Shown: positions 8,179 to 40,622 of the stretch, piece by piece
Layout of the letters: every line of letters begins with the position of its first letter
How positions within the stretch are numbered: position 1 is the first letter of the stretch
NCBI GenBank assembly: GCA_019973155.2
Contig: BPQB01000016.1
Coordinates: 496,001-560,000, forward strand
DNA: 64,000 nucleotides
Direction: 5' to 3'
Source of the DNA: Phanerochaete sordida
Lineage: Eukaryota > Basidiomycota > Agaricomycetes > Polyporales > Phanerochaetaceae
The notes under the pieces: generated by a model
Databases searched by the model: none
What the model saw: only the letters and a program-made list of their open reading frames with translations
Told to the model about the DNA's origin: nothing
Made by a program: the position numbers and the translations under genes

Positions 8179-9787
8179 CTAGTACTCCGTGGTTTCCTCG
8201 TACTCTTGATCGCTGTCGTCCTCCCAGAACGATATGTCTTCACCGATATTTCCGACGAGCGATCGCCCGCGGGGCAGGTGGAACCGCACAGCCGAAAAGT
8301 GCGATGTCTGTTGCGCCCCTGAGGGAAGCGACAGATCTGGAGGGGCGTCCCCCAGCGACCGCAGATTGAGGATGAAGCGGCTGATGAGCACCAACGGCTG
8401 AGAGTGCGGCGGTCAGCGCGCATATCGCGTCTGCACTGGACCAAGGGCGTTCTCACCAGCAGCATGCTCAGGATCGAATCAAACTATGTGTGCTCTGGTG
8501 AGATGCTGGCCTCTCGTCGAAAGGTACGGCAGACGAGCTCTTCGTACCTCATACGGATCGGACGGCAACGCGCTCTTCAAGACGCCAATGGCGAGACACG
8601 CACTGTACGCAATACTGAGCGCGTGCACTGTCATGAAGCGCTGCCGACTGACATGAAGAACAACACGCCTGCGCAGTGCGTCGTCAGGTCCGCCTTTCCA
8701 GTGACAAGGGCTTCTGAATAACGCACCGTCCCGGAGCATACAGGTGGACGCAGAGATGTGGATGTTCGCGCGCGCGGCATCGCGCCATTGACAGTATGTT
8801 TTCAGCAGGACCAGAGCGAGGACCAGGCTCAGCACTGCCATTGCGTAGCTGTTCAAGGCGAGAAACCCTGTATCACGGACGCGATGCCTTTGAGTCATTA
8901 TGCGAGGGAATCACCACCTGCACGTACAGCTGCAACATGGTATTAGTAGGCACTTTGAAATCAACGCGTTCAGGACGCACATTTTCACTCCATTCGGAGA
9001 CATGTTCAAGGTCTGTGTGCAGGAGTTGGCGGGCCAGTGCGCATAGGAGAAGGTAGAAGGAGAGATGGTTATGTACTAAATAATTGAGCGCATGAGAAGG
9101 ACAAAATGGATATAGACCCACCAAATTACATGCACCGGGAACAGAGCCCACTAAAAGCATGGCTAGCCCCAAGCGCACATTACGTCCCCAGATCGCATAC
9201 ACACGCAGAGCAGAGAAGACTCCAGGTGCAAAAACCAGCGAGCATGAGTCATACGGTGGTACATTAGGTATCGCAGGAGCTCACTGTTAATTTGGGCGTA
9301 TGCTAAGAAGTACAGGCCCTCTTGAGCTAGATAAAATGAGCTGCAGTTGCTGAGCAGAGTACACCGGTAAATGATCCACTCGTTAAATATGCGAGACAAG
9401 ACCATACCTCGTGGGTTTATTGGGAAAGGTGTACTGGAGCAGAAATATTGCAATGGTGCTTCCTCTCGTGCTGAGGTACAGTAGGCTTGTCATGGTCAAT
9501 GGACGACGCCAGATGACATCGATCTCACTCCGAAAGGAGATGACGTAGTCGTAGAGCACCAACGCTGAACATACATTAATGAGGCATTCAATGAGTATTT
9601 CCCCAGTATTTCCACCGAAAAGGGCAAAATGAACGCACTGAATGCTGCTACTTGCTCATATTCAGCGATGGATCTAGAGAGAGCATTTAAGTCACGAATA
9701 ATGTCAAGCATGGCCTGAGGCATGACTTGTCGCTCACACCAATGAGAGATATCGCTGCGCTTGAGCGTCGGACAGCTGAGAGCCCAT
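8179..9787 (-). CDS. DUF6533 membrane protein, copy 1
   Basis: Twelve exons (minus): 9738-9787, 9639-9673, 9408-9564, 9285-9349, 9122-9219, 8981-9075, 8928-8929, 8727-8867, 8653-8668, 8548-8602, 8457-8483, 8179-8397. They sum to 960 nt, 319 residues. The DUF6533 core is ALVLYDY followed by WRRP; later segments FSALRVYAIWGRN and LVLALVLLKTYCQW are membrane helices, followed by LRDG and the C-terminal NRF-like helix and GNIGED motif. This is a fungal family of multi-helix membrane proteins of unknown function. Exon 7 has only two bases (CT); without it the frame is lost. The exon pattern is shared with five paralogues. The gene is intact by this model. The start is ATG at 9787. Confidence 0.82.
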
Positions 9788-10789
9788 GATCGAGGCAATC
9801 AAGCCAGGCTCAAAATTCTGGGTTGCCTGAGAAGACTCAGCGTGGCCTCTATATACCTACGCGCAAGTACGTCAGTATTTGGGTTCAGAGGAGGCCATGA
9901 ACTCGAGAGTAACACTGGTGCTTCTACAGGGCACCCCAGATGTTGCTGGAGACATCAGTTCCATTAACTGTTAATGTGGACACGTAGGACACAGGCCATG
10001 GCCAGAACGAGCTTTTGTAGAGCCTGAGAAGACGCGGAGATGAATGTCGCAGACATTCGCACGCAGCAGAAATGATCAGTTGGCATCGAAGGCCTGGAAA
10101 TGGCGAAGGCAGGGACATGATAGAGCCATAGAGGCCGTGCCCGTAGCACCTGCCAGAGTTGGATGCTAGGCAGAGCCCCCGGTCGCGTGCTGGTTCTGCG
10201 GAGTGCCGGAGAGAGTTTGTGTCCGGTCTGGTGGAATGCGGGCAGAGAGATGGGCGCCCAGTAATTGGACCAATGAAAGTTTCCACCGCTGCTTCTGCTA
10301 CGTAACTCTATACCACGACTCCAACGCGCTCGCGCTCGACGATATCAATCGTCTCGATGCGTTCGAGTCAGCTGCGGCTTGTCCGATCCCCGCTGCGCGG
10401 CGACCGCAGGTATCCTCCGCGCTCCGCGACAGCTCCACATGGAGGATCGAGGATACACCGCAAAACGCGACGTGCAGGCACCACCTGTGTTGTGCACGCA
10501 CTGCTTGGGATCGGAAGGGATCTATCCGGCCCGATCAAAGGTGCCGACGGCGTGCACGGCACTCGTTGGAGCATCTGTCGTCGGACAAGCAGCCGACGAC
10601 CTACAGCGGGGAAAGAGGGAGCGACAGGCGTGCATCCCTCATCTGTCTCATCGTGCCCATTTCTACGACACAGGTATCGACGGCCGCCGGTGGCTCGAGC
10701 CCATCGACATCCTCCTCTACTGCATTTTCCCGGTGAGCCCAGACCTGATTTCAAGTTTGGCTCAGCGAATCCGGCGTGGACCGCGCACC
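9788..10789. other. Intergenic, no gene seen
   Basis: This is the promoter side of DUF6533 copy 1 and the 3' side of copy 2. Open frames here lack family resemblance. No repeat or RNA gene was recognised. Confidence 0.5.
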
Positions 10790-12443
10790 TCAGGACCGTG
10801 CTACTGCAGCGCCACGCGACTCGGGTCTGCAGCGGCCGCAAACGTGCGTGCCGCATCCAGGAGCGCCGCCGTCCGCCGCGTCCTCCCCAGCGCTGTCCCC
10901 GCCGTACGACACGTCCTCGCCGATGTTCCCGACGAGCGACCGTCCGCGGGGCGGCCGAAAGCGCACGGCAGACAGGCGTGGTGTCTGGCGTGCTCCGGAC
11001 GGAAGTGACAGCTCCGCAGGCGTTCGCCCCAGTGCCCGCAGATTAAGGAGGAATCGGTTGATGAGGATCAGGGGCTGCGCGTGCAGAGGTCAGCAGGTGT
11101 GCTGCGCCTGAAGACGTGTCCTGACCGGTATCATGCCCAGGAGCGAGCCATCCTGCGTAGGGAGTTTTGGTGAGCTACCTGGCACAGTTAGAACAGGAAG
11201 CGGTTATAATTTCCACGTACCACAGCCGGAGATGGCCCTGCGAGCTTTACAACGTCAATTGCAAGAATGATACTGTGCGTGGAATTTACAACAAACAGTG
11301 CAGCAGATCGCTGTTCACTCACACAAAAAATAATACGCCTGGAGGGCACATGTTTAGGTGTAGTCGCGCTTCACCTCTAAAGACCTTCTTCACTCACCAT
11401 CTCGGAGGATGCAGGTAGAGACAGATAAATGGATATTCAACTGTCTGGCAGTACGCCACTGAGAATATGTCTTGAGCAAGATTAAGACCAGGACCAGGCC
11501 GTGGAGTACGATCGAATGAGTGTTCAAGACTGGAGCAACTGTGGCGTGACCGCAAGGTCCATGAGTGATCGTGCGAAACATGGGCTGCACCTACGGCTGT
11601 AGTATGGTCAAAACATCAATACGAGCACATTAATCCTAATTTCAAAGACGCACATCTTCAGCTCCCGCGGAGGCATATGCAAGGTCTGCACACAGGAGTC
11701 GACGGGCCATGGCGCATACGAGAATGTGGAGCGGAATATGCTTGCGTACTGATGGATGTGGGCATGCAACGCCTATTGGGGGACCGCAAGGTCGGGCTCA
11801 CCAGAAAGAACGCGCCAGACACAGCGCCAGTGAGGAGCATAACCAGTCCCAAATACCCGTTTCTTCCCCAGATGGCGTGTACACGTAGAGCGGAGAAGAC
11901 TTCACGCGTATGATCAAAGGTAGTCAGTGATTTCGAGGCTCAATAAGACGCTGCAGGAGCTTACTATCGGCTTGTACGAATCCTAAGAGATTTAAACTCG
12001 TTATAATCAGGTAAGTCGCCTTGCAGTTGCTTGGACAGGTCCACAATCAGTTGATCTGCCCTCTGGATCCGCGGTGTAGAGCCTTACCTTGTGGGAGCGG
12101 CTGGAACGGCATATTCCGCTAAAAACGACGCGACCATGTTCCATCTCGTGCTGAGGTGTAGCACGCTGGTGACTGTAAGCGGTCGACGCCAGATGGTATC
12201 CACCTCGCCCGAGAAGATGACCAGATAATCATAGAGCGCAAGTGCTGGGCATGCGTGCAGCAGGTCAACCAGTCCGTAGATCCACGGGCACAAAATGAAC
12301 GCACTGGATACCGCTAGCTGCTCGTATCCATTGGTGCGTCTGGAGGTGCACGCGGGTCAGTGAGTATGACATGAGACATGGCATGTCGCGTACGTTGCGG
12401 AGAGCTCCGACCCCAGGTCGGCGCCAGACAGCTGAGAGCTCAT
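10790..12443 (-). CDS. DUF6533 membrane protein, copy 2
   Basis: Twelve exons (minus): 12394-12443, 12305-12339, 12088-12244, 11965-12029, 11802-11899, 11654-11748, 11595-11596, 11398-11538, 11323-11338, 11221-11272, 11126-11152, 10790-11074. They sum to 1023 nt, 340 residues. Landmarks are LALYDYLV, WRRPLTVT, FSALRVHAIWGRN, LVLVLILLKTYSQW, ILRDG, INRFLLNLRALG and GNIGEDVSY. The second exon is 35 nt, the fourth 65, the fifth 98, the eighth 141 and the ninth 16, as in the paralogues. The 2-nt exon is CC, between TACAG and GTAGGT. The intron before exon 11 uses the CTACGCAG acceptor, because nearer AG sites break the frame. Function is unknown. Confidence 0.8.
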
Positions 12444-13483
12444 GATCGCGGCCGTGCCACTGGAGACGATTTTGGGGGCCTTGGGATCGCGTCTGCACAC
12501 GAGGGCTCAGCATGACATTTATGTGCCTGGCAGGCAGATGCGTCAGTATCTGATTATCGAGGATGCCATCCAAGCACAAGGGATATAGTCTGCGCCGCAC
12601 CTCGGGGTCTCAAACGTCGCTGGAAATCTCAGCCGCGCCGCCGCCGTGAGGCGCCGTCTTCGCGGCTCGCAGAGCCGGCAGAGGGCACACGCGGAAGGAC
12701 ACACTCTGCGCTCCAGTGTTGCGCTGGATGCCCCCCAGACAAAGCACCAGGGAGCGGAGGTCCGGCTCTGACACACGGAGTGCTCGCTGTGCGCTGACCC
12801 AGGCACAGTGCGTGCTGGGCGCCGCACCACATGCCGATTTGGCGTGCTGTACGGGCCCGATGTGCTGTGGCGGCGCAGAGTGCGCTACATATCCCTGGAC
12901 GTGTGAAGGTACTCTATGGCTTTTACTCGTGCAGGGTAGAGGGACCTCCTAGGGGCTGCGCCGGGGCATATCGTGTACGGCGTCGAGAATCTGCCCAAGC
13001 TAACGTCGGCATGCGCATGGGGCTTAGACTGCGAGCGTGGAACAAAAGGCGTCCGGGAAGGAGTTGCCCACGTAGTCTTTCAGATTGCCAAGACAATCTA
13101 GGCCATGTCTGGAGGTGATCGCAATATGGGTAAGAGGGATTTAGAGGAGTGCTTTCAGCCGGTCTGCCAAGTTGTCGCCGTCCGCATGATCAGAGCGACA
13201 CACGGTGCGACACACCAGCTGCGGGATTTGCATTTGCGGTTTGTGCGAGCGTGGAGCGCAGGAGGAATGGATTTGGGGTCCGAAGAGTTTCGCAGCGAGG
13301 TGGCCAGCAACGGTAGTAAGGATCTCGACCCAAGCCCGTGCGCTGCGATATGGCATGTGACGGACCGACCGCGCGCGGTTCTGCAAGGCTGTAGGATGTG
13401 CGAACGGCGTCAGTGCCAAACGCGCGACTCGCGGGGCTAAGGAGGATGTCTCCTGTCAGATTGGTCGCTGGGCAAGTAGTCTG
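12444..13483. other. Intergenic, no gene seen
   Basis: It separates DUF6533 copies 2 and 3. Open frames up to about 110 codons exist on both strands but look like chance frames of GC-rich DNA. No repeat or RNA gene was recognised. Confidence 0.5.
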
Positions 13484-15313
13484 CTACGAAGAGGAAGGCG
13501 AGAGGCATACTGGACGCACACAGTCTCTGAGCGCCGAAAAGTGCGGCCGTCGAACGTTTATCTTTCCATGGTATATATATATCCGAAGTTTCACTAGTTT
13601 GAGGCACTCGACGTGCTCCCCTGCATGATATTCACGGTAAGCCCACACCATATTAAAGCGACGCCACCGGCTTGGATTGCGCACCCCAGAATCGTCCTGT
13701 CGCAGCGCTGAAAAACCTTCCACGGTCGACGGCAGCGGACCCTCCTCCAGTGCTGCTACCGCCTCCTCGCACTCTTCCCCGGCGTCGTCCTCGCCGAATG
13801 ACAAGTCTTCGCCGATGTTCCCGAGGAACGACCGCCCGCGGGACAGCAGGAAACGCACAGCGGAGAAGTGCGCCGTCTGCGCGGCCACGGGCGGGAGCGA
13901 CAGCTCTGGGCCCGCGCCGCCAAGCGAGCGCAGGTTGATGATGAAGCGGTTGATGAGGACGAGGGGCTGGGCGTGCAGAGGTCACTGCGCGTGCCGCGGC
14001 CACGGAGCGACGAGGAAAGCTCGCACCAGCATGACGCTCGGCACGCCGATGACAGCGGACAGGTCCTGCATGCGTGCCCGTGAGTCTGCGGGTGTGCCGG
14101 TGCGAGTAGGACAGTGGACGGACCGCGCTCAGAGGCCTGAGGCTCCGCAGGATCCCCGTCGCGAGGGTGACGCTGCGCACGGCTGCATCAGGGGGCGCCG
14201 GGACGGAGCGCGGGGAGCGTACATGAAGCACAGGACCCCTGCACATGCTGTGGCTCAGTGCGCCAGAACAGCACGGGGCCGTGGGGCTGCGCACCGTCCT
14301 GGAGGAGGCAGGTCGTCCCGGAGAGGTGGATGCCCCCCGTTCTGGCTTGGCGCCACTGGCTGAAGGTCTTCAGCAGGACCAGGATTACGATGAGACACTC
14401 GGCCGCGATCGTCAAGCTGTTGAAGCTTAGCGTCACTGCGTCGCGGACATATCCGAGTTGTAAGCAGATCGTGCAACGCCTCGGACCCGCGCAGCACCCA
14501 CAGCTGCAACGTTGTAAGCAATGATAGGGCGTTATGCGTCATGTCCGCACCAAGAGGTGGGCTGCGTACATTCTGTACTCTCTGGCGGGGACGTCGGAGA
14601 CCTGCACACAGGCGTCGATGGGCCAAGATTCGTACGTGTAGGTGGATCGGATGCTTTCATACTGACTCATTTAACATGCGACGTCCAAGGCATTGTCAGG
14701 GCCGTGGACTCACTAGGTAAGCTGCGCCCGTTGTGGAGCTGAGCGTGAATATGAGCAGTCCGAGAGGTAAGTTTCTTCCCCAGATGGCATAGATGCGCAG
14801 AGCGGCAAAGACTTGATATGGAACGGTCAGCAGTTCGACTGCTCACAGAGGCATGCCTAATACGTACAGCTTGGTCGTAAATATGCTATAAAAAGCAGGC
14901 TGTTCAGCGCTGTATAGATGCCATTGCAGTCACTTGGAGCCGCGCATGAGTGCATATACGATCGCGCGACTCGGCGCAGGGAGTTCACACCTTTTCGCGT
15001 TATCTGGAAAGGTATATGTCACCAGGAACACCAGCATGGCGTTCCATCTGACGCTCAGATGCAGCAGGCTTGTGGCGGTGAATGGCCGACGCCAGACGGT
15101 TTCAATCTCGTCTGGGAAGGAGATGAGATAGTCGTAGACAACCAGCGCTGAAGGCAAAGTTCGACAGTCAATCTCAAGGCATTTATGCGAGAGGATGAGT
15201 AGCGCACCGTATGACGCTGCCTGCGCATGTGAAGCAATGGACCTGGGAGAGACGGGAAATGAGGATCAGCTAGCATGCTCAGAGTGGCATGGAACGGGAT
15301 GTGGTGCTTACAT
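13484..15313 (-). CDS. DUF6533 membrane protein, copy 3
   Basis: Exons (minus): 15312-15313 (start AT), 15208-15242, 14991-15147, 14868-14932, 14714-14811, 14570-14661, 14502-14503, 14295-14435, 14223-14238, 14124-14172, 14027-14065, 13484-13966. They total 1179 nt, 392 residues. Landmarks are LVVYDYLISFPDEI, WRRPFTAT, FAALRIYAIWGRN, LIVILVLLKTFSQW, INRFIINLRSLG and GNIGEDLSF. Exon 7 is the 2-nt CT. Oddities: the region matching exon 1 of the paralogues has no ATG and contains TAG, so the start may be the ATG formed across the first splice junction (AT|G), or the gene may be losing its 5' end. The C-terminal tail is long and could contain a further intron. Confidence 0.68.
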
Positions 15314-15717
15314 GTTAGAGATTTCCTCCCGCAGCTATTGAGTGGACTGAGGCCCCGCGCAGGCTCTATATACCTGCGCATAAACTCAGGCCGAGGACAG
15401 AGACCTTGGGCGGCAGCGGACAATGCTGTACATGGCCGACATTTCACATTCCATCATTCCTGCTGGTGAGATATACTGCGCCCCGGCCATTGCGAGCTAG
15501 GGTCCTGAGCCCCTGTGCAGCTAAAGTCAGCGCTAGACCCAAGGTACACTTACTCTTTCGCGGGGATGTGGCCCCGGTTGTCTGGATTGTAAGGCAAAGT
15601 GACAGCACCAGCGCGCTCCGCGCCGCCGCGACGCAACCGGCGGCGTCGGATGCTTAGGAGGAATAGCAGTGGCGAGATGCAGCCCCAATTCCTTGTACGG
15701 GGAATTCCGGGTCGTCA
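15314..15717. other. Intergenic, no gene seen
   Basis: Upstream of DUF6533 copy 3. Traces of the paralogues' first exon (without a usable ATG) lie at 15312-15361. Nothing else was recognised. Confidence 0.4.
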
Positions 15718-16187
15718 GATTTGACTGGCTCGGCTCGAAGCCAGGAAGCGGGCCAAGCCGAGCCAGAAACCTCGGCTTACGCTGGCTTATCGCTTGATTT
15801 GCTAGTCAAGCCAGCTGAGCCAAGCCGACAATGCCTCGGCTGAAAATTCCATGGTGAGCGTTACAAATATGCGTTCGTTACAGTATGCTTACTATAAATG
15901 CCCAAGGATACAGTGCAATTCTGTGAAGAATGTGAGAGCGTGAGGGTCAGCTCGACACACCTCGCTTGCCTGAGTCCCAGTGGCCTTCTATTATATGTCA
16001 GCTATGGAAGGTCCAGGTGTCCATTTTATAACACTCGCCCCGCTGTTCACAAGCCGCGGCTCAGGCCAAAGCCGAGTCTGTGGCTTATGGCTTGCGGTGG
16101 CTCGCGGCTTGGCCATCTCTCCGACCAAGCCTGAGCCGGCTCAAGCAGAGCTAAAGCCTGGCCAAGCCGGGCCAGTCAAACCACTAC
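15718..16187. mobile_element. Inverted-repeat element rich in GGCTTGGC words
   Basis: The ends are inverted: TTTGACTGGCTCGGCT at the left and, read from the other strand, TTTGACTGGCCCGGCT at the right. Inside, GGCTTGGC/GCCAAGCC and GAGCCGGCTC-like words recur near both ends in opposite orientation, with a unique, AT-richer middle. This fits a non-autonomous DNA transposon with subterminal repeats. No coding capacity is seen and no target-site duplication could be fixed. Confidence 0.6.
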
Positions 16188-16602
16188 TGTATGTTGAACA
16201 AGGACTCAGATAGCAGGGGGAAGGAGACGCGGAGGCCTGGATTGCACGGCAACGCGATGCCGGAGCATCACAGCTGTCGCCTAGAAGGCCAGGGGGGCAT
16301 GGACCCGACAGTGCCACGACGGCCGTGCGGGTTGGCGGAAACGAAGGTAGACGCTTGCCAAAGCGGGAGGGAAGGTGTGTGCTTACGTGATGGATATGGT
16401 GATGGCGACCCCAGATTGAAACGGCTCTCGTCCTCTGACTTGTTCAATCGCCCACAGCAGATGGCTCACTAACAGCCTCCAACAACTCGCTCGTTGCCCA
16501 CTTCCACCAGCACCCACATCCCCGCAGCTCTCCAGCTGCGAACGCCCACGACCCCGTCCCGTCACGCTCTTTTGTATTCTATCCTCCCCTTGACCACCCA
16601 CC
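16188..16602. other. Upstream region of the 16.6-kb membrane-protein gene
   Basis: No gene. The last 100 bases are pyrimidine-rich, as is common before fungal start sites, and CCACC precedes the ATG at 16603. Confidence 0.45.
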
Positions 16603-18815
16603 ATGGCTGGCCTCCCTTCACCGCCGTTCTCCAGTGCGTATCTGAGCCGTCCTGCTGCAATACCCTGCTGATCTCCTTGCCGTTGCACCCAGACCCCTTC
16701 GCCCCGCCGGCGTCCACGTGCGTGCCCCCTCACGAAAGCGCATACTCCCGCTAATCACGCTTGCAGGCCCACCCAGTCCAGCACGTCTTCCTCTGCCGCC
16801 TCAAGCACGGCCAGCTCGGCATCACCAGCGAGTGATTCCTCCACCACATCCGCCACATCCACCTCTGCGTCGTCCGCATCCTCGCCGAGCAGCGCCAGCT
16901 CCGCCTCCAGTGCCTCCTCCGCCTCGAGCACCTCCGCCTCCTCCACGAGCGCATCCACGGGCTCCTCCTCCTCCTCAGCCTCCGCGCCCACCTCCACACC
17001 CTTCTCGGGCCCGTCCTCCGCCTCGAGCCCGTCCGCGGCGCCGCCCTCGCAGCGCAGCAGCTCCGCGTCCATCATCGCGTCCACGCAGTCCGACGGCAGC
17101 GTCGTCTACGACACCACCTACGTCGTCACCTCGCCGTCCGCCACGAACAGCGTCGCCGCCGCGCAGGGCAGCGGGACCTCCAAAGGGTGAGCCCTTCTCG
17201 CAATTTTCCTGCACGACCCTGCGTTTTGCCTCCGTCGAGCGCCTCGGGCGAAGCCCGCCGCCCCTCGCGAAGTGTTCGCACGGGTGAGGCCGCGGCAGTG
17301 CTGTGCGCGGCGCGCTGGGTTCTTCGGGCAGAGCGAAGCGTTCTTGGGCGGGGTCTGCATCTGGTGGAAAGACAGATGGAAGTCCCAGCGGTGCCGGCGA
17401 TGGATACCCCGTTGCCCGCCTCTGAAGCCCAAGACGCGCCCCATTTCGCGCACATCCCTGCAGCGACTGTCCTACGGGCGCGCGAAATGACTCGCTCGTC
17501 GCGCGGTCGCGCGCGTCGACGCGACGCGTGACGTACGACCGAGACCGCTGCGGACTGTGCAGCTGGCACGGTACTCCTCTAATAGGTGCAGCGGCCTGCA
17601 GCGCTTCTTTCATTTCCACCGCTTCTCGCTTCCCTTCTCCGCTTCCCACACACTCACCCGCCCCCCAGCTTCTTCGAAAACAAAGGCGCCGTCGCCGGCG
17701 TGTTCACCGTCGTCGGGCTCATCGCACTCGCCGTCGCCGTCGCGCTCATCACGAACGCCGTGCGCCGGCGCCGCGCGCACAAGCTCGACCGCGAGATCGA
17801 CGAGGCCGCGCGCGAGGCCGCGCACGCCGGCGTGCACCCGCCCGACCTCGACGACGACGACTTCGCGTTCGGCGCGCGCAGCGTGTACACCGACGGCACG
17901 CACGGCGCCTATGCGCAGGCGCCGCTCAAGCACCTCGAGGCGTACAACATGAGCGAGCTCCCGCTCACCGCCGACCCCGCGCAGTACGACACCGCGCAGT
18001 ACGGCGGCGCGGGGTATGGCGGCGCGGGGTACGGCGGCGCCGCGGGGTACGGCAGCACCGCGGTGGAGGCGGGCCACGCGGGCGTCGGCGCCGCCGGCCT
18101 CGCGCGCGCGCGCAGCCAGACGCAGCCGTACAACGCGTTCGCCGGGCCCGGCGCGCACGCCCCGCCCGCGTTCTTCGACGCGCCGCCGCCCCCGCCGCCT
18201 GTGACTGCGTACGGGGGCGCCGCGGGGCTGCTCGACGCCGCAGGCCTTGGGGCGGGCGCCGCGGGTGCGCTCGCGCGGGGCCCGAGCCAGCATGGCGGGC
18301 AGTATGCCGCGGGCGGGGCGCGCGCGCTGGACGCGTATGCGGAGCCGTATGGCGCGTACCCGCCGGCGCCTCAGCAGACTCAGCAGCAGGCGCAGCAGCC
18401 TCAGCAGCAGCAGCAACACCAACCTCAACAGGCGCAGATCCAGTATGCGCCCCAGCTAGGTGGGCAGGGGCAGCAGAGGCCGGTGTCGGGCGGGGAAGAC
18501 GTGTATGGCGGGTACGCGGGCGATGCGTACGGTGCGGGTGCGGGCGCGGGCGAGTGGCGCGACGAGCAGCAGTATGCGCACGCGTACGGCGACGCGCCCG
18601 AGTACCGCGACGACCACCAGTATCCGCACGACCAGCAGTATCCGCAAGAGCAGTTCCGCGCCTCGCACGAAGAGGAGAGCAGCGACGACGACGAGGGCGA
18701 GTACGCGCGCGCGGAGCCCGCGTACGCGCGCCACGAGAGCCGCGCGAGCGTCGGTGATGATGAGGATTATGGGTATGGAGGGGCGAGGCGGGTGTTGAAG
18801 GTCGCGAATGAGTAG
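16603..18815 (+). CDS. Ser/Thr-rich single-pass membrane protein
   Basis: Exons 16603-16633, 16693-16717, 16767-17186 and 17669-18815 total 1623 nt, 540 residues. Residues 20-150 are almost purely Ser, Thr, Ala and Pro, a mucin-like stalk likely to be O-mannosylated at the wall. A membrane helix follows at about 166-188 (GAVAGVFTVVGLIALAVAVA), ended by RRRR. The cytosolic part has an acidic DLDDDD stretch, YGGAG repeats, a poly-Gln-rich block (about 385-420), repeats of QYPHDQQYP type and an acidic tail. The layout recalls fungal cell-wall stress sensors of the Mid2/Wsc kind, but no cysteine-rich WSC domain or clear signal peptide is present, so the family is not assigned. The 25-nt second exon and the 482-nt last intron are unusual here. 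Confidence 0.72.
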
Positions 18816-20759: not shown

Positions 20760-20925
20760 TGGTAGTGTCTTGACCTCGTCTCGTATCAAGTGTACGTCGC
20801 ACATGACGGCGTCCGAATATAACACAATCTATAGTCTGTTCTATGATACAGGATTACAATATACAAACAAAAAGTCGTAAATAATACCACACATCTAGTA
20901 AACAGGATACGTGTGAAGTCGGAGC

Positions 20926-30157: not shown

Positions 30158-31075
30158 ATGAAGAGCACCTTCAACCCATTCCGTTCGTCGGGCAAGGACA
30201 AGGTCTGCGTACCTGACAACCTCCCAGCCGCAGGTAGCCCCCAGCCCACGAGTATACCCCCACCTGCATTTACAGTACTACCCACCTACAAGTTAGACAT
30301 TCTACTCCCGCCCTCCACCCCGCTTACCATCATCGAGCTCTTCCAATCTCAAGGCTGCTCGTCCTGCCCACCCGCGAACGCGAACGTCCTCCGCCTGCTC
30401 GGAGCACAAGACACGCTCAGCGCAGCGCAGCGCCAGACGTTGAATGGGACGAACACGCTCGTACTGACGTACGACGTCACGTACTGGGACTACATCGGCT
30501 GGCCGGACACGTTCGGCGACGCACGCTGGGACGCGCGCCAGCGCGAGTACGCTGCGGCGATGGGAAGTCGGAGCGTGTACACACCTCAGGTGCGTGTGCC
30601 ATGGCTGGTATGAGATGGGCTTATGCTGATCGCAGGGCAGGTCATCGTCAACGGCACCGCCAGCGGCGTCGGCGCGCGCCAGAGCGAGCTCGACGCGCTC
30701 ATTCGCGAGGGCGCGTCCGCCCCGCACGCGAACTCCGTCTCCGTCACCATCACCTCCCCTTCCTCACCCTCACCCTCCTCCACCCCAACCGAGATAATCA
30801 TCTCCGGCCCCGCAACCACACCCGCCCTCGTGCACCTCATCCTCTACGACCCCGCGACACACCGCGTCGCCATCGCGCGCGGCGAGAACGCCGGGCGCAC
30901 GCTGCCGCACCGCAACATCGTGCGCGACGCGGTCGTGCTCTGCGCGTGGGACAGAGGGAGCGCGCGCTTCGCGTTGCCGGAGGGCGTCGCGGCGGCGCGC
31001 GCGCGTGGGTGGGAGGCGGTCGTGCTTGTGCAGCGTGGAAGGGGTGGGGCGGTTGTTGGTGCTGCGAGGGTGTAG
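30158..31075 (+). CDS. DUF1223 family protein, intact copy
   Basis: Two exons, 30158-30589 and 30641-31075, total 867 nt, 288 residues. The 51-nt intron ends at the second of two AG sites, which alone keeps the frame (VYTPQ|VIVNG). The thioredoxin-like core holds IELFQSQGCSSCPPAN with Cys67 and Cys70, then the family words VTYWDYIGWPD, REYAAAMG and YTPQVIVNG. DUF1223 proteins are small thioredoxin-fold proteins of unknown substrate found in bacteria and fungi. No signal peptide or membrane helix is seen. An S/P/T-rich loop (about 180-205) interrupts the C-terminal half. The start is the first ATG after a TATA box; its inverted twin at 3309-4221 is dead. Confidence 0.87.
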
Positions 31076-31380
31076 CGGGGGCGTGCTGGTACGTGGTGCG
31101 ATGAGGACTGTAGCGGGACGATATAATTCACGGTACACTCACGGGCACCTTGGAGCTGCACAAGGTACGAACAGCGGTGGCCAGTATGAATTATAATATT
31201 AAGCTCAAGTGAAGCTTATTGGTCGGCGCATGAATATAGTTCTGCGTTCGTGCTTCTCGTCTTTGATACAGGGAAGGTCTGCAAGCCCGGCCATGCTCCT
31301 GAGCTGCATCTGCCGGAAGTACCTGTCCATTGGAAGTTACTACGTGTGGAAAATCAGAGCTCCCATACGATATCGATAGG

Positions 31381-31405
31381 TGTAGGGGTTGAACCAACCT
31401 GCAAT
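31381..31405 (-). other. tRNA T-arm relic, right arm
   Basis: Read on the minus strand this is ATTGCAGG followed by GGTTCAACCCCTA, the diverged equivalent of the relic at 2998-3018. Its presence in both arms shows that it predates the duplication. Confidence 0.4.
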
Positions 31406-31456
31406 ACTGGCTGACCACTGGCGGTATGCAGTGACTGACAAATTCATCCACTGCAT

Positions 31457-31527
31457 GGCCGCCTGGCGAAATGGCATCGCGTCTGACTACGAATCAGGAG
31501 ATTGCAGGTTCGACCCCTGCGGTGGTC
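31457..31527 (+). tRNA. tRNA-Arg(ACG), right copy
   Basis: 71 nt, identical to the copy at 2882-2952: same acceptor pairs, anticodon loop CTACGAA and B box GGTTCGACCC. There is no intron and no encoded CCA. The flanks differ clearly from the left copy, so the identity points to selection or gene conversion. Confidence 0.93.
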
Positions 31528-31551
31528 AATGTCTCTACCGTACCAGACTTG

Positions 31552-31584
31552 TTTTGCTTGTTATTTCTATTATTTTGTTTTTTT
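31552..31584 (+). terminator. RNA polymerase III terminator region
   Basis: TTTT at 31552-31555, then seven T at 31578-31584, downstream of the tRNA. Confidence 0.6.
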
Positions 31585-31639
31585 GAAAGAAATAACATAT
31601 CTCTTCTGATATTGTCTTCCTAGACCCGTGCAGGAATCT

Positions 31640-32826
31640 CAAGTGCCATAACGCTGAATTTACCTCCTGAAAGTTACGGGCCATCATGTTCATTTACTAC
31701 GCTTGCGCGTTTTCGCATTCTGTCGTTTTTCAAGGCCATTTAGCCGCCCGCCACTCCTTCGTCCCGACCGTCACTTCGCTCTGTTTGCCTTCAACAGCTG
31801 ACCTCCGAGTTATTTCAGTAAATCATATCTGATACGTCCAGGCTTGCCGTACTGCGATACTTGATACCCAGGCCGAACGCGTGCCCATGCTGAGGCTGTG
31901 ATATACGGACCGCAGCTTGAGCGCACTCTCATATGCGCACCGCCTGACGATGAGCTCTATGCATGTGAGCCGCGTTCTTGACATCGCTGACCTTCTATGA
32001 ACTCAAATTTATGGAATAGCCGCGGATCTAGTTGCACTGGCTCAGGCACGTGTAATACCGTCGTGTCGGTTCGCGCCACTTTCGCGTCCACGCTCTGTAC
32101 AGCTTCCGGTACTTCTACACATTTCGCCTGGCGGATATCCCCAGCAATGACGATTTACGTTATGTCTGGGCAAGAATACCCGGGCGTGCCTCGGCACTCG
32201 CTCTGACATATGAATGAACCTGTAAGTATCGCCCGCTTCCACTCCCGCAATCAGCGTTGTCTGACGATCGCCTTTCCACCATCCGAGGCCCGGACGCTTG
32301 CACTGCGATATTCTTGGCGTGGAACATGAGGAGTGTCATGTCGAGCACTGCCTCGTCAGGAGCTGCTGAAGACCCGAGTGAGGCCGCATCAGTGGGAGCG
32401 ATTAGAAAAGCGGGGCGCCTCATGCCGTGAGCGTCGTCCTTGTATTGCTGCTGCGCCATCTCACTCATATCGTCACCGCACAGCGACTCTTGGCTATGGC
32501 TGTGGCGCATGAAAGATTGAGCGGGCTTCGCCATGCGCCCATACCCGTTCTCGGCTCCTAGGACGCCAGGCCTGCACCTTTCTATAGACCGGGCGTGCTT
32601 CCCTTGCGCGAGCCATTTCCACCTCTTGTCTTCTCGACCCGGCGGTATGTTCCAGTCCGCTATTTCCGGCTTCCTAGCACGCCAATCGCCGAGGACCTAG
32701 CGGCGCCTCCCCTGATTGCTGCACAAATACGCCTGGTGCGACGTCACGTCGCCTCCCTTTGCTCTGCATATGGCACAAACGGGACTCCAGCGAATCATGA
32801 CCTGGAAAGGCGGAATCCCGCCCTTA
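31640..32826 (+). pseudogene. Relic of an unidentified multi-exon gene, right copy
   Basis: Inverted counterpart of 1-1195. No continuous frame can be assembled. Shared words such as GCGGATCTAGTTGCACTGGC mark homologous segments. The family is not recognised. Confidence 0.4.
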
Positions 32827-33010
32827 TGCCATAGCAAGCCTGGCTCTAGACACGCTCGCGGGCCCTCCTCTCGGCGTGCCCGCCACCGCCTCTTCATTGT
32901 CAGGCCACGATGCTGCGACCGTCGCACGGGAAGGCTCCCCTTCAAGGCATATATGCTCGAGCGGGCAGCCCTGTCTCCATCTTGGACACGTCCTTGTCCA
33001 GCAGCAAAAA

Positions 33011-34706
33011 ATGGAGACAAGCATGCCCAACTCTGCGCTGCAGCAAGCCCAGGCGAGGTACGTCGTGCCTTCTGCCGCGTGTCGAACCATAACACTCTTG
33101 CTGATGAGACCCACAGCGAGGCATATGCGTGCGTCGTCTGGTCGGCATTCGGTGCGTACTCTCGTCGTCTTCTCAGTACGCACCGTCTGACGCGCCGCAG
33201 CGCTCGCCATCTACGACTACGTCGTCACCCTCCCGAGCGAAGCCAAAGTCGCGTGGCGGCGCCCCTTCACCGCCACGACGGCCCTGTTCCTGACCACGCG
33301 CTGGACGATGGTCGCGATCGTGGTCACGAACGCCGCACCGATCGCACACGTCGGGTGCGCTTCTCCCTTTCCATCTCCGTGCGCCGCGCACACACTAAAG
33401 TTAGGTTCTGCCACAGACACTGCGTCGCAGTCGTCTGGGTGAGCCAGGTACTCAGCTCGGTATCGTTCGTGCAGGCCGCAGGTGCGCGCTTTCGCTTCGT
33501 ATCTTTGTTCCGCGATGAGCTGAAGACCACGCAGTGTTCTCTGCGCTGCGGATCTTTGCGCTCTGGCGCAGCAACTACGTGCTCGCGTTCCTCGTGCTTG
33601 CCCCTGGCCTTGTCCCCGCGGTATTAAACCTTGTACGTCATGTCCGCCCCGATGATTTCGGCCGCGGCTAACTGCTGTCCACCTCAGTACACAACTGCGT
33701 TCCACAGCGCCTCCGCGTTCGTGCTGTGTTCGGGCGGCGCCAAGACGTCTATGCTGCCCCACGCCGAGCTCATCATGTGCGTCTGCCACTTAAGTCTTTG
33801 AATGTATCGCGATACTGACTACCACCACAGATGTATGTCGGCCGTCTAGAAGCCGTCTGACGCCAAGCTGATGTTCTTCAGTGCTCCACGTCTCGCGGTC
33901 GTGCTTACTCGCGATGGACTCGCTTGTCTTAGTCCTAACGTGGCTTCAGACGTTTCGCCAGCTGCGCAGCGCGCGCGAGTTGGATGTGCGGCTGTCGCTG
34001 TCGCGTTGCCTGCTCCGCGACGGTGCGTCTATCTGCAATGCGCCTCATTGTTCCCTCGCTGACAGCGTTCAACGTAGGCACTTTGTACTTCTTGTACGCA
34101 TCTCCTTTGTCCCAGGAGAGTCTTTTGCTGACGCGCAGACAGCCTCATGCTCGCGATGAACGTTGCCGACATCCTCACGTTTAACACCGTGCGCTACCAC
34201 AACTCCACTGCCGAGCCGATTACTCACCGCCCTCCAGATCGCATCTCCGATGGCGTCTCTCGCCCAAATCTTGGTACGCCTGTCCTCCACGCTCGTCGGG
34301 ACGCACGCTGACCCCTGCCACGCAGCCGTCCGTGCTCATGAACCACTTCATCATCAACCTGCGCACGCTACCGCCCAGCGGTGCAGACGCGCGGCCGGAT
34401 CCGACGTGGCTCCGCCCTCGGACGCTCTCGACGATGAGCTTCCCGATGCCGCCGTTCCTCGGGAACATCGGCGAGGAGCTCGTGCACGGCGACGCGCCCG
34501 ACCCAGAGGACGGGTCTGAGGAGCTCCTCATGCAAGACCTCGACTCGCTGACCGACGACTCTGTGTCGAGCGCCGGTACTGCGGCCAGTCCTCGCAGAGA
34601 GCCAGAGGACATCGAGGTGAGGATGTGTGTCCACGTTCGGTGGTGGAAGGCCTTGCTGACTAAGTGATTCGGTGTATCGTCTCATGAATAGCTCAGATAT
34701 GTGTAG
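33011..34706 (+). CDS. DUF6533 membrane protein, copy 4
   Basis: Thirteen exons: 33011-33057, 33117-33151, 33201-33354, 33417-33481, 33535-33632, 33688-33776, 33831-33832, 33882-34022, 34078-34093, 34143-34188, 34238-34273, 34326-34616, 34692-34706. They sum to 1035 nt, 344 residues. Landmarks are LAIYDYVVTLPSE, WRRPFTAT, FSALRIFALWRSNY, LVLVLTWLQTFRQL, LLRDGTLYF, MNHFIINLRTL and GNIGEELVH. Exon 7 is the 2-nt AT (CCACAG|AT|GTATGT). The 49-nt intron after exon 10 looks like coding DNA at first sight; leaving it in gives a false frameshift. Multi-helix membrane protein of unknown function, intact. Confidence 0.85.
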
Positions 34707-35175
34707 CGCCGCGCGCTGCTGCCTATCAGCTGGCACTGGAAGATTTTCCTGCCTGCTGCGCAGATCTTGGATCGGGCTGCTTTCGCACACTGCCGCGCGA
34801 AGATCAGTCTCAGCCGTCTAGAGCCCTCACTGCACTCGATCAACATTATAGAGAAGGCACGAAGCAGGCTATTTAATGCAGGTAATATCCATGCCGGAAA
34901 ATCCTGAAGTTCGCTCGTTCAACGCTCGTTGGTTCCGATCGTACACGACTTCCTCTATTCCTATTCCCCCGCTGCAAATCGATTAATTACAGTTCGGTCC
35001 TCTCCCTCTAAGCGCCGCACTGCACCCTGCACAGCCTCGAAGCACGACTCAAGTATTGTCAGCGCCGCGCCTTCTGCTCTTCCATCTCGCTCTTCCATCT
35101 ACTCCTCTAACATGCTTCGACTCTCGCTTCCACGACTTCTCTCAATGAAGCTGTCCTCTTGCCGCTGGCGATACC
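34707..35175. other. Intergenic, no gene seen
   Basis: The 3' flank of DUF6533 copy 4 and a pyrimidine-rich stretch (34940-35110) before a possible small gene. Nothing else was recognised. Confidence 0.45.
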
Positions 35176-35616
35176 ATGCCTTCTTCCCGCACCTACCCGT
35201 TTATCAGCTCTGCGGTCGCAGGGTGGGCTGCCGCCCCCGCGCCCTTCGTCCGTTTCGTGTGCGATCACGGAGATCCTACATGCGCGCCATGCAAGACTCC
35301 GTCCTGCGGACGCGCACGCGCGGTGATAGACACCCTCCTCGAGCGCCACGCGCCCTGCGCTGCATCAGAGCTCGGCCGCCCCGGGCAGATCTCCTGGCCT
35401 CGTCCACGCGAGGCCCGAGATCGGCGCAGATCGTCCCTTCCGATTCTGTGGCGCATGGCGAGACTGCGCGCGCGCGCTGCCCGACGCTGCCCGCTTCGTG
35501 GGTACTGGCAGAGCCGGTACTGGCGCTGCAGCGAATCAAACGGGCACAACGAGCCGTCGAACGCGAGCGCATTGCGCGCTTCGCCTAGTCGAGGTCCCGG
35601 TCATCCTGCGGATTGA
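35176..35616 (+). CDS. Possible small Cys-containing protein
   Basis: An open frame of 146 codons from ATG, following a pyrimidine-rich, promoter-like stretch. The first half is plausible protein, with a cysteine cluster (CDHGDPTCAPCKTPSC). The second half is Arg-rich and may be a chance frame, because another frame over the same bases also looks protein-like near 35400-35590. No family recognised. It may be a gene with a missed splice or frameshift, or not a gene. Confidence 0.3.
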   Translation: MPSSRTYPFISSAVAGWAAAPAPFVRFVCDHGDPTCAPCKTPSCGRARAVIDTLLERHAPCAASELGRPGQISWPRPREARDRRRSSLPILWRMARLRARAARRCPLRGYWQSRYWRCSESNGHNEPSNASALRASPSRGPGHPAD

Positions 35617-35797
35617 CGGTCCATCATCGCGCAGAGACATCTTCTCTGCGAGAAGCACCCGAGCCGCTGCTGATATGTTTCATCGTGCTGCTAGTGTTCA
35701 TATCCCAGGGATGTTGCGGTCTATAAGTTCGGTTCTGGGATGGTCCAGGATTCTGCACATACAGTATTACCGGACACACCATCTACTCACCAGCACA

Positions 35798-37763
35798 ATG
35801 GCCTCTACGCCGAACGCAGCGTTGCTCAAAGCCTTCGAGGGAATGTATGTGAACGCATCTATCTGCTCGATCCGCCTGGCTGACAAATCTATGTAGGCAG
35901 GAGAACTCATATTCCACATGGGCGGCATTTAGTAAGCGACTCTTCTCCGAGCTAGGCATCACGCTCATTTTACATAAGCTCTCGCGACGTACGACTTCCT
36001 CATAACCTTTCCATACGAGCTGCGGCTGGTGTGGAGACGGCCTTGGAACGCGACAAACGTTTTATTTCTGACGACGCGGTGGATCATGGTCGCGGGTGCG
36101 ATTGCCGTGGTCGCGCCAAAAGCGCCGACGAGGTAAGATTCCGCCTTCCTTTCACCACTTGAACCTCATGCTAACTCTGTCGACGCAGTAATTGCAAGGT
36201 AGTCCTCTGGGTCGACCAGATTCTAGGCTACATATCCTTCGCCCAAACTGCTGGTGAGGTCATCCGTGCTTACACTGTGTGCCGCATTGACTTACATCAG
36301 TCTCGTATGTCTAGCGTTCTCTGCACTGCGCATCTTTGCTATCTGGAACCGTAACTACGCGCTAGCAGCGGTCATCTTTGCGCTCGGCTGCGTGCCAATT
36401 GCGGGCAACATTGTACGTCGTTCGGTACTCTTACCGATGCCTTCCTGTACTGATTATCTTAGTATCTCGCCGGGTTTCACAACACTATCAGCTTTGTATC
36501 GCGGCCCGTCTCTGAATGTATCGAGACGATTACGGTCTCCGAGGATAATCTGATGATGTACGTCCCAAGACCCTGCACAGACGGCTTTTACGCTGACAAT
36601 CCCCAGGTGTAGGTCAAATGGACATTCGCTGTCTATAATCATGACTTAGCACGACTGTCCAGGGCTTCACATACTGTAGCGGAGTGTACGGTACAAACCG
36701 CCCGGGGGTGCGTTACGCTCCGACCTGCCCTCCGGGCTACAAACCGACGTCATTCTGTGGGTGATTTCTTGGGTTTCTGGCTCATTTTCGCTGCGTCTGA
36801 CGATGATAAAGGAAAAATATAGGTGAAAATGGCGGGGAAGAAGCGAAATGACCGCACAAAACGCGACATTAGCTGGTATCATGTTGATTTTGGCAGGGTT
36901 TGGGCCTCGGGGCGTTACGAAAAGGGTGAGATAACAAACCAAAAAGGGGGTGCGTTATGCGTTACGGTTTGTACCGTACACTCCGCTACAGTATCGCGCG
37001 GCTGCGCGATCGCAATGGATGGTCTAGTCCTTGTATTGACGTGGCACAAAACGTTCCGCCAATGGCGCGATGCACGAAACCTGAACATCTCTTTGTCGGC
37101 ATCGACCTGTCTCCTCCGAGACGGTACGTCGCGCGAGACTATCATTCTCTCGTCACATTGACGTAGCATCAACAGGTACCTGGTACTTCTGGTAGGTCGG
37201 AAGAGCAGGGTCACCTAGGCTGCCAACGCTGACTCGTCTGACAGCGGCCTGTTGGCCATGAACATAGCAGAGATGGCAACGATCAGGACGGTAAGCCTAT
37301 ATTCGTTGACACACTGGGTGGATTTCTCACTAGATAGTCCTCAGGTGGGGACCCCGCTAAGCTCATGCCTAGTTCAAGTCCTGGTGAGCATAATCTGGGA
37401 CGTCGTCTGGACTAGACTGTGCGCTGAGCCATGAAATATAGCCTTCTGCGCTCGTAAACCACTTCATCATTAACCTGAGATCGCTCAACCCGGCGAATGC
37501 CTCTATGTCCGGGGAGCCGCCTCTTTCGCAGATATCGTCGCTGCATATCCGGGCACCGAACTCTTTCCTCGGTAATATTGGCGAGGACCTCGACTACGGC
37601 GAAGGTTCTTTCCGGGAAGAGGATGGCACAGAACGCTCCTTCACGTCCGGCTCGTTCGCTCAAGATATCTCTACGACCGTCTCCTCTGAGAAACTCGATG
37701 CTATCGAAGTAAGTATGTGCGCTATCGCTGGAGGAGTTAAAATGCTGAACACAGATATCATGA
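35798..37763 (+). pseudogene. DUF6533 gene, copy 5, broken by a MITE
   Basis: Exons 35798-35844, 35897-35931, 35979-36132, 36189-36253, 36315-36412, 36463-36557, 36607-36608, 36663-37123 (with a 320-bp insertion), 37176-37191, 37245-37290, 37345-37383, 37442-37708, 37755-37763. Without the insertion they sum to 1014 nt, 337 residues. Landmarks are LATYDFLITFPYE, WRRPWNAT, FSALRIFAIWNRNY, LVLVLTWHKTFRQW, LLRDG, VNHFIINLRSL and GNIGEDLDY. Everything apart from the MITE is intact, and exon 8 has the family length of 141 nt once the MITE and one TA are removed. So the gene was whole until recently. Exon 7 is the 2-nt GT. Confidence 0.85.
36674..36991. mobile_element. 318-bp MITE, TA target, perfect 27-bp inverted ends
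   Basis: The ends are exact inverted repeats of 27 bp beginning CTGTAGCGGAGTGTACGG, and the element is flanked by TA on both sides (36672-36673 and 36992-36993). This is the pattern of a Tc1/mariner-mobilised MITE. GGGGGTGCGTTA occurs near both ends in the same orientation. It has no coding capacity. It sits in exon 8 of DUF6533 copy 5. The intact ends suggest recent insertion. Confidence 0.9.
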
Positions 37764-39195
37764 CAGACCCCGAGCATTCGTGGAATGGCTGCTTGAGACT
37801 GCCATATTGCATGTCCCTGGTCCATCTATCGACTTTGCCGCCTTTGATCACATATATTCTTCCGAAGGGCTATCCTATGGCTGAACAGGACACTCGATGT
37901 GTGATGCGGAACGCTGGAGGTCCAGGAGAGCGTTCGGGCATTGCTCGAGCTGCCCGACGTGGTCATGCTCTCCGGCGAGTTTTCGAGACGTGTGTGAAAA
38001 CTTTGGTTGCAGGACCTCATAGTGGTTGGACAGAAACAGCTCGCGGCTCAGGCGAAGGCTTGATGAGCGGGCTAGATGGTCGGCACTGCGCTCGCTCCTA
38101 CAGCGTTCTCTCCCAGGCCCGACGCTTCTGCAGCATCACCGCCCGATTGCTCCCCGTATTCTATGTCCCGGTTTACTTGACAGACTCTCATGTCCTGAAG
38201 TGCGGGAACGGGCTCGGGAGAGGTATGTAGATAGGTACATATAAAGCAAAATCGTACGTCTATCTGCCGCGCCCTTTAATTTACGAGGCACTTCTCTAAT
38301 TGCCTGCCATGACCTAGAGAATTGGACAGGCGGTAATTATGCAAGACTCGCATTTGACCTCGGATTTAGGTCCGCCAGCATCGGCAGGGCGTAGCTCACC
38401 ATTCGACAGCTTCCAGCGATGAGCATGTCCCTCTTCCTAAGAACACTGAAGTTTTCAGCTATAGGCTGTGCTTCAGGTGGCTGGTCCCACCTCGTTGGCA
38501 GATCGCCCTGAGAAACGTTACGGCATGGCACAGGATCGGGAGTAAGGTTCGAGTTCCGTCAGCAAAGGATACCTAGAACGTCCGTATCTTCCATTCACCT
38601 TGGTGATCTCATCTTTCCCACGTACCTGCAGTGCCGCTGCTTGGATCTTACGTTGCCGTCGAAGACGTATGACTGAAACTCGGACGTACTGTGTCGCACA
38701 TCGGCCTTGTTGAATACAAGGATCGTCGCAGCCATGTCTAACCAGACGTAGCAAGTCTCGCTGGTCGGGCTCTGGGGCCTTATACAAGTGGTATTTCTTG
38801 TAGTAAGCAGGATCTCTCCATGTCCTTATTATGTACGGTGATACTGACCTGCCTAGAAGGCCACAGCAAGATTTTGTTTGGCAGATCGTATTAGATCTAT
38901 GATTAGATTATTATCCTGCTCCAATGATTGTAAACAAAGCCTTCGCGGCAGTGCTTCTCGGGAGCGACACGGCCAACATAGCCAGTCCCTGTACGCCACG
39001 CACCCTTGTCTGCCATTTCCAGCACTCACACGAGCCCTTTCCGCACAAGACACCCTCATCCTAGTCAGGTATCCCTGCAGCCGAGGCCCTGAAAACGCAA
39101 TAATCCGCGAGATGTGAACGACGCTTATATGGGCCCGCAGAGCTGCTGTGTGTCTTCATTCACACCGGCATATAGGGACTTCCCTGAAGAAAGAC
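37764..39195. other. Intergenic, no gene seen
   Basis: It lies between DUF6533 copies 5 and 6. A GGTTCGAG word near 38537 does not fold into a tRNA. ATATAA near 38240 and AT-rich sequence around 38870-38930 are the only marked features. Confidence 0.45.
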
Positions 39196-40622
39196 ATGGA
39201 CGCAGACCAGTCGGACACTCAGCTGCTGCAAACTGTCCAGGCAATGTGCGTTTCTGCTCACTGTATATGTTGACCCTCGCTCATGCGCATCGTAGGCAAG
39301 CGAATAATTATGTCTCCTGGGCAGCCTTAGGTGCGTCCTATCAGACGAGTTCCCAATGCTGCCCCAGATATTCAGCAATAGACAGCTCTGGTGCTCTACG
39401 ACTTTGTGACCACTTTCCGACACGAGATGCGTATCGTGTGGATTCCTCTCGCACGCTGGGCTACGGCCTCTCCGACATCTCGTCGCATCCCGCTCAATGC
39501 GCGCGCCGGGCTGTTTCTGACCATTCGCTGGGCTATGGTGGTAGCCGCGCTTTTGATCGTGGTACCTGTTGCGCCAAGGTGCCGCTAGCTTCTCCCGCTC
39601 CTCGGGAAATGCCAGTGGGCTGATCTCTGATCGCAGCCGATGCGAAGGTGATGTCTGGGTGTCCAACATCGTGGCGTACGTCGTGCTCTCCCAAGTCGCT
39701 CGTACGCTCACGATCTATCGAATCTGCTGTCCACATATTACTAACCGGGAATTGTATCAGTGTTCTCTGCCCTTCGGATTTTTGCCATCTGGTTCAAGAA
39801 CTATACTCTCGCTCTGATCACGCTCGCGCTTGGCCTTGTGCGCGTTATCGTCAACATTGTACGCATCCCACTTCACCCGCCGTTTCGCTACGCACTGACA
39901 TGCGCAGTACGTCGACGGCTTCAGGAGCAACTACTCGTACGCCGGCTGGCCTGTGTCCGGCTGCGTTCAGAGTGTGACGCTTTCCGACACAGAACTCACC
40001 CTGTAAGTCTCTTCCGTAGTGAAGATTCCTAGAATATAGACTGATCTCATGCTGATATTGCGGCAGATGTAGGTTTTGTCACTACTCCCCAGATCGCGGC
40101 TTATGCGTGCGCCCCAGGTCTTTACCTCTCACGCGCGACCGTGATTGCGATGGACGTCCTCGTGCTCGTGCTCATCTGGGCCAAGACGTATCGGCAATGG
40201 CGCGACGCCCGCACCCACCTCGGTACACCATCGGTCGTAGCCTGCTTTCTCGTCGACGGTACGCTCTTGCTATTACATACCAGGCGTATCAGCGCTGACG
40301 CAGAAATTGCAGGAACGTGGTACTTCTTGTACGTGGCGCGCGCCGTTGTAACATGATGCTGCGTCGATGCACCGCCGGCTGACGTGCGCTGCCAGCGTGC
40401 TCCTTGCGCTCAATATCGCGGACACGCTTACCTTCAGCACCGTACGCCCACTCATACCCGGTCCTCTTCCCGTCGAGCTGACCCCGCAACAGACCGGCTC
40501 CCTGCTCAGCTCGCTCACCCAAGTCCTCGTACGCCACATTCTTGTCTCTTCTCCACATTACATTGACTATGACCCGAAACCGCAGCCGTCGGTCCTCATG
40601 AACCACTTCATCATCGACTTGC
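39196..40622 (+). pseudogene. DUF6533 gene, copy 6, 5' part (split by 17-kb insertion)
   Basis: Exons 39196-39245, 39296-39330, 39386-39578, 39637-39701, 39761-39858, 39908-40002, 40067-40068, 40118-40258, 40313-40328, 40396-40441, 40493-40528, and the first part of exon 12, 40586-40622. Landmarks are LVLYDFVTTFRHE, FSALRIFAIWFKNY, LVLVLIWAKTYRQW and MNHFIIDL. Exon 3 is 39 nt longer than in the paralogues and replaces WRRP with an extra 13-residue stretch. Exon 7 is the 2-nt AT (GGCAG|AT|GTAGGT). After CTTGC (40618-40622) the reading runs into the LTR and stops within two codons. The remaining coding sequence is at 57700. Confidence 0.87.

Follow-up and report, generated by a model that had tools for sequence, protein, structure and literature searches.

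Six DUF6533 genes and a two-base interval

The stretch considered here, hereafter the window, comprises 64,000 nucleotides (nt) of the 40.8-Mb genome of Phanerochaete sordida YK-624, a white-rot fungus of the Polyporales, and corresponds to bases 496001-560000 of contig 16. It holds six genes of the DUF6533 family, here numbered 1 to 6, in which two coding segments, exon 6 and exon 8 (the helix exon), are separated by a region that contains a splice acceptor and a splice donor lying two bases apart. The original prediction, made from the window alone, held that these two bases are themselves an exon, bounded by a short intron on either side (here intron A upstream and intron B downstream). All six dinucleotides lie at the coordinates claimed for them, each within the pattern YAG-NN-GTRNGT on the coding strand (Table 1), and the claim that exon 6 ends in phase 2 holds in 6/6 of the gene models. 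Other parts of the prediction fared less evenly. The flanking introns of 49-66 nt are found in five genes and for intron A of gene 5, and not for intron B of gene 5, which as modelled measures 383 nt and has a miniature inverted-repeat transposable element (MITE) inside it. The coding totals were not reproduced: gene 4, the sole gene completed to a stop codon, comes to 1068 nt without the stop and not to 1035, both figures being multiples of three.

The MITE of gene 5 (36674-36991) carries an inverted repeat of 27 nt (36674-36700 and 36965-36991), and its inner end offers a CTACAG acceptor that would preserve the frame of the modelled exon 8. Among the matches listed, the curated cut-off of the PF20151 (DUF6533) profile is passed by five of the six window genes, and it is also passed by the spliced gene 4 and by P0005, a related public protein described below. 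Gene 6 was not among these matches, and its exon 8 was recovered by the genome search for that exon.

Table 1. Coordinates of the two-base exons and neighbouring features in the six DUF6533 genes of the window
Gene	Feature	Position	Strand	Length (nt)	Site, codons or source
1	2-nt exon CT	8928..8929	-	2	CAG-CT-GTACGT; codons ATC (I) + TGG (W)
1	intron A	8930..8980	-	51	gene model
1	intron B	8868..8927	-	60	gene model
2	2-nt exon CC	11595..11596	-	2	CAG-CC-GTAGGT; codons ATC (I) + CTC (L)
2	intron A	11597..11653	-	57	gene model
2	intron B	11530..11594	-	65	gene model
3	2-nt exon CT	14502..14503	-	2	CAG-CT-GTGGGT; codons ATC (I) + TTG (L)
3	intron A	14504..14569	-	66	gene model
3	intron B	14436..14501	-	66	gene model
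4	exon 6, phase 2 end	33688..33776	+		identical in NCBI model
4	intron A	33777..33830	+	54	gene model
4	2-nt exon AT	33831..33832	+	2	CAG-AT-GTATGT; codons ATA (I) + TTG (L); NCBI PsYK624_065980 is without this exon
4	intron B	33833..33881	+	49	gene model
4	exon 8 (helix exon)	33882..34022	+		NCBI model: same splice sites, out-of-frame reading
4	exon 9	34078-34093	+	16	also in NCBI model
5	intron A	36558..36606	+	49	gene model
5	2-nt exon GT	36607..36608	+	2	CAG-GT-GTAGGT; first codon ATG (M)
5	intron B as modelled, MITE inside	36609..36991	+	383	gene model
6	intron A	40003..40066	+	64	gene model
6	2-nt exon AT	40067..40068	+	2	CAG-AT-GTAGGT; codons CTA (L) + TGT (C)
6	intron B	40069..40117	+	49	gene model

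Spacing and reading frame across the family

A search of the genome with the PF20151 profile found at least 150 places, a large expansion of DUF6533 in which many of the places are clustered on contigs 2, 58, 86 and 104. For a first sample (set 1) 60 regions were fetched and a profile of exon 8 was built, which gave 74 matches; removal of a duplicate (L020 at 61) and of four matches below 30 bits left 69. Among those four, L028 and L032 belong to a class with an 8-nt exon considered below, L019 belongs to a different copy, of which it is the cut end, and L030 has the same kind of site, AG-AT-GTACGT; L008-L001 was also left out of this set. The second sample (set 2) was made up of 72 places, not yet covered by the first, that were hand-picked out of the 127 exon-8 places of the genome; the criterion of selection was exon 8 and not the splice site. 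Omitted from it were C2:205914-206078, which has three internal stops, and C2:78976-79095, which lies inside L012. Altogether 141 genomic places coding for exon 8 were examined. Certain other places with a PF20151 match (L037, L039, L050-L052, L060, L064-L066, L068 and others) have no exon-8 match at the threshold used, and looser profiles gave nothing usable there.

The distance between the inner acceptor and donor was scanned as YAG-N(k)-GTRNGY, with k from 0 to 30, in a fixed 113-base scan window upstream of exon 8. In set 1, where gene 5 with its MITE was omitted, k=2 occurs in 58 of the 68 scan windows and each other value of k in 0-6 of them; mononucleotide shuffling, repeated 60 times on these scan windows, gives k=2 in 0.6 of them on average and in at most 3. 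Set 2 behaves in the same way, with k=2 in 59/72 scan windows, each other k in 0-5, and a mean of 0.76 and a maximum of 4 for k=2 in 200 shuffles. Since AG and G at the site are fixed by the rule by which sites were picked, it is these scans that provide a fair test. With the MITE copy included, the strict site (YAG-NN-GTRNGY) is present at 118 of the 141 places. A weaker site, defined as AG-NN-G[T/C] that fits the frame and the intron sizes, is present at 22, which show AAG as the acceptor, an atypical donor or (in two cases) a GC donor; as AG-NN-G[T/C] alone arises about once per scan window by chance, these 22 rest on frame and intron sizes. At L054, two copies show GC in place of GT downstream of the two bases (GCAAGT and GCAGGT), the other donor positions being intact.

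Only one place has no site: this is L069, an exon-8 fragment that lacks its upstream half, with the sequence of another gene standing there. At L069 and L141 (G000:C2:614630-615936) a DUF6533 exon-8 fragment stands alone next to another gene, which we take to resemble the DNA primase small subunit.

Each of the 140 sites lies in a 60-mer of its own. Across them YAG and GTRNGY are kept, and the neighbouring positions in the introns reach no more than 0.22 bit. The median protein identity of the paralogues is 32% (703 pairs from the 38 best models). Between copies, the interior parts of the two introns show a similarity of 0.72 versus 0.71 when shuffled, i.e. no excess. Across the family intron A measures 47-68 nt and intron B 46-73 nt, apart from the one intron B of 383 nt; the donors of the two introns have similar scores, and a CTRAY branch motif is found in 82/140 copies of intron A (24 when shuffled) and 67/140 copies of intron B (27 when shuffled). 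Well over a hundred membrane-protein genes, and not the six of the window only, seem on these comparisons to have a 2-nt exon each.

The reading frame was followed with a separate profile of exon 6 that ignores the site altogether. At a threshold of 8 bits it recognised 33 copies; a donor was found in 32 of them (none for L057), and exon 6 ends in phase 2 in 32/32. When the two bases are included exon 8 is in frame in 31/32 copies; when exon 6 is joined directly to exon 8, with equal freedom in the choice of a YAG acceptor, this is so in 2/32. The phase-2 frame of exon 6 stays open for at least 20 codons in 69/69 copies of set 1 and 69/71 of set 2, against 42 and 27 copies for the other two phases in set 1 and 32 and 28 in set 2, and the conserved cysteine lies in the phase-2 frame in 68/69 and 67/71 copies, respectively. 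Both codons that the two bases would complete are free of stops in 140/140 copies, and the second of them encodes L, M, F, I or V in 121/140. A permutation test of the codons that the second base forms with exon 8 was dropped, as any base followed by TN specifies a hydrophobic residue. In the models of the full set the acceptor of intron B was picked to fit the frame, so that acceptor counts from those models are not independent.

In a sister subfamily of AWEALF type the homologous position is occupied by an exon of 8 nt. It is represented by seven copies (L003, L006, L027, L028, L032 and two in L033), with the same phases as the 2-nt class and short flanking introns, an example reading being TANRLAIAW. 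An eighth copy, L026, has lost intron B and gives the collinear read-through SAIHIAVAW. As eight nt equal two nt plus two codons, the exon, to judge from the sequences, has shrunk or grown by whole codons between the subfamilies.

Public proteins and competing splicing schemes

With the two bases taken out, the model of gene 4 is the NCBI protein P0001 (PsYK624_065980) letter for letter, which confirms the other splice sites of this gene up to the frameshift. With the two bases in place it yields a protein of 356 residues that has the motifs FIINLR and LGNIGE, both of which are also found in P0005. This latter protein is continuous, 360 amino acids long, and comes from a contig of 1277 bases in a read assembly (source tag lgn); it aligns to the spliced L015 copy with 63% over 185 residues and one gap, none of it at the junction (ARKIVWATR versus ATKVVWITR). 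Since about four introns lie upstream of the junction in these genes, P0005 is likely the product of a spliced transcript. P0027 of P. carnosa and P0002 of Daedalea quercina, which are known as proteins only, are likewise unbroken across the junction. Among the alignments listed, P0009, P0010, P0018 and P0019 have at least one extra residue near the junction, P0015 has a short deletion near it, P0004 has seven extra residues, and P0003, P0017, P0022, P0024 and P0026 are unaligned across it. The proposal that the two bases finish one codon and start the next is upheld by the spacing scans, the phasing of exon 6, the frame of the cysteine and the continuity of P0005.

It had also been anticipated that gene finders would overlook such an exon, and 3/3 of the public P. 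sordida models that we examined are wrong at this point: P0001 (gene 4) joins the neighbouring exons directly and shifts the frame, P0004 (the gene of L042) is annotated with a 23-nt exon that adds seven residues, and P0006 reads into intron A and then meets a stop. The genome is described as having been annotated by BRAKER2 gene prediction followed by manual curation (PMC8530024).

The splicing chosen in the NCBI model of gene 4 represents the simplest competitor, namely a single longer intron that joins exon 6 to exon 8, with the inner YAG-NN-GTRNGT being coincidental or regulatory. We consider it most improbable: direct joining is out of frame in 30/32 copies, an in-frame alternative with one intron exists in only 19/139, the inner motif shows exactly one spacing, and the protein made by direct joining is without the conserved helix and the C-terminus. 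Retention of intron A would be in frame and open in 12/139 copies and that of intron B in 18/140. Direct joining, intron retention and alternative donors or acceptors fit a minority of copies only.

A second possibility is that the inner exon extends beyond two bases because an acceptor further upstream is used, which is how NCBI models the gene at L042, where the annotated 23-nt exon does keep the frame. The seven residues that it adds are absent from the family, P0005 has no extra residues, and the spacing of two is dominant family-wide; as a general account it therefore has a very slim chance, and a longer inner exon may occur as a minor form in single copies. Least credible of all, and in our view almost certainly wrong, is a recursive splice site or stwintron at which the inner site would be used stepwise with nothing retained in the messenger RNA: the adjacency of acceptor and donor does resemble a ratchet point and stwintrons are known in fungi, as a partial view of that literature indicates (PMC6616335), but spacing 0, the YAG directly before GTRNGT that a zero-nucleotide site demands, is at chance level (1/68 and 2/72 scan windows), taking out the two bases disrupts the frame, and exon 6 ends in G in 11/140 copies. 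A stwintron in the strict sense, in which an internal intron splits an outer splice signal, is rejected, as both donors are complete (leaving no split donor) and the frame is lost without the two bases.

Several points weigh against a 2-nt exon and have to be set beside this evidence. The NCBI models splice otherwise, yet each of them breaks the conserved protein. The models of the full set took that acceptor of intron B which suited the frame, and 22 of the sites are of the weaker kind, backed by frame and intron sizes at a chance rate of about one per scan window. The status of P0005 as a transcript is deduced from a contig of 1277 bases, and an intronless gene is a possible source; a search for copies of the 2-nt class without introns, i.e. 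copies in which the junction is spanned free of stops from the conserved cysteine, found 0/127 among the exon-8 places of the genome. The case as a whole is built on the genome and on public proteins. Taking these points into account, we put at roughly 95% the probability that each of these DUF6533 genes uses an internal two-nucleotide exon constitutively, with an ordinary short intron on either side, a reading drawn from gene structure.

Proposed splicing and relation to known minimal exons

Where the fifth predicted transmembrane helix begins, the first of the two bases would complete one codon as its third position and the second would open the codon that follows. Skipping them would shift the frame and destroy the C-terminal half of the protein. 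Most copies would be frameshifted by either skipping or retention, so that constitutive use of the exon is to be expected. With only two bases between acceptor and donor, splicing complexes could not occupy both sites simultaneously, which points to a stepwise removal of the introns. Each intron is a full unit that would be recognised singly by intron definition; the two introns would then be excised successively, with the two bases riding on whichever exon is joined first, the order being conjectural. Stepwise removal has likewise been deduced for a single-base exon of Arabidopsis, so far as that work is represented here (PMC4674806).

One of the closest precedents is a single-nucleotide exon in the cytochrome P450 gene CYP621A of Fusarium (PMC12940212). 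It is likewise fungal, was given away by the out-of-phase exons flanking it, is conserved in orthologues, lies within a conserved motif and had been overlooked by annotation. As that source presents it, the Fusarium case concerns one base in 20 orthologues of one genus and is confirmed by RNA, whereas the DUF6533 exon has two bases, occurs in about 140 paralogues of one genome and is known from genes. The single-nucleotide exons of plant APC11 and VPS55 are also ultra-short, constitutive, essential to the frame and missed in annotations, and for them too intron definition with stepwise removal has been proposed (PMC4674806, PMC8831610); unlike the DUF6533 exon they consist of one base and, in the portions of these accounts available to us, occur in one to a few copies per genome with no large family. 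Within the same genus, the micro-exons of the P450 genes of Phanerochaete chrysosporium share with the DUF6533 genes the short introns and the many paralogues, and differ from them, as far as the source describes, in that the shortest exon is of 6 base pairs (bp) and no single exon is family-wide (PMC1184071); an 8-nt exon is mentioned for CYP5141A1 of this species (PMC12940212). Stwintrons and zero-nucleotide recursive sites also involve two consecutive reactions by intron definition, in the sections of the sources drawn upon (PMC6616335, PMC4674806), and they retain nothing between the introns, whereas the DUF6533 genes retain two bases.

The two-base size is not in itself new, given that one of these papers, with reference to earlier work, notes Arabidopsis, Drosophila and humans as having exons of 2-5 bp (PMC12940212). 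A search of the open-access literature, with most subscription journals outside its scope, turned up no earlier description of DUF6533 genes with a 2-nt exon. What appears novel, as far as was searched, is that such an exon is kept by about 140 paralogues of one genome, and within the same literature this is possibly the most extensive collection, in a single genome, of exons at the minimum of length. These roughly 140 natural variants with divergent introns also constitute a panel on which the order of intron removal, and the handling by the spliceosome of an exon that cannot be bound, may be studied.

The predicted fold of these proteins appears to resemble that of G protein-coupled receptors (GPCRs), with Ste2 as the apparent best match to the model. 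Reaching considerably further, one may speculate that at least 140 Ste2-like seven-helix receptors are hidden from annotation, each with its 2-nt exon at helix 5, so that loss of the exon would remove helices 5 to 7, and that the forced, ordered two-step splicing could serve as a shared checkpoint or switch, accurate splicing of both introns yielding a receptor and a slip giving a truncated message that decays; we regard this conjunction as unlikely. The domain of the family has been noted in a fruiting-body gene, snb1, in the part of that study on which we draw (PMC10949477). In P. sordida this mushroom family is misannotated at this point, the 3/3 models examined being frameshifted, padded or truncated. 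Given the GPCR-like predicted fold, corrected gene models would matter for the discovery of fungal receptors.

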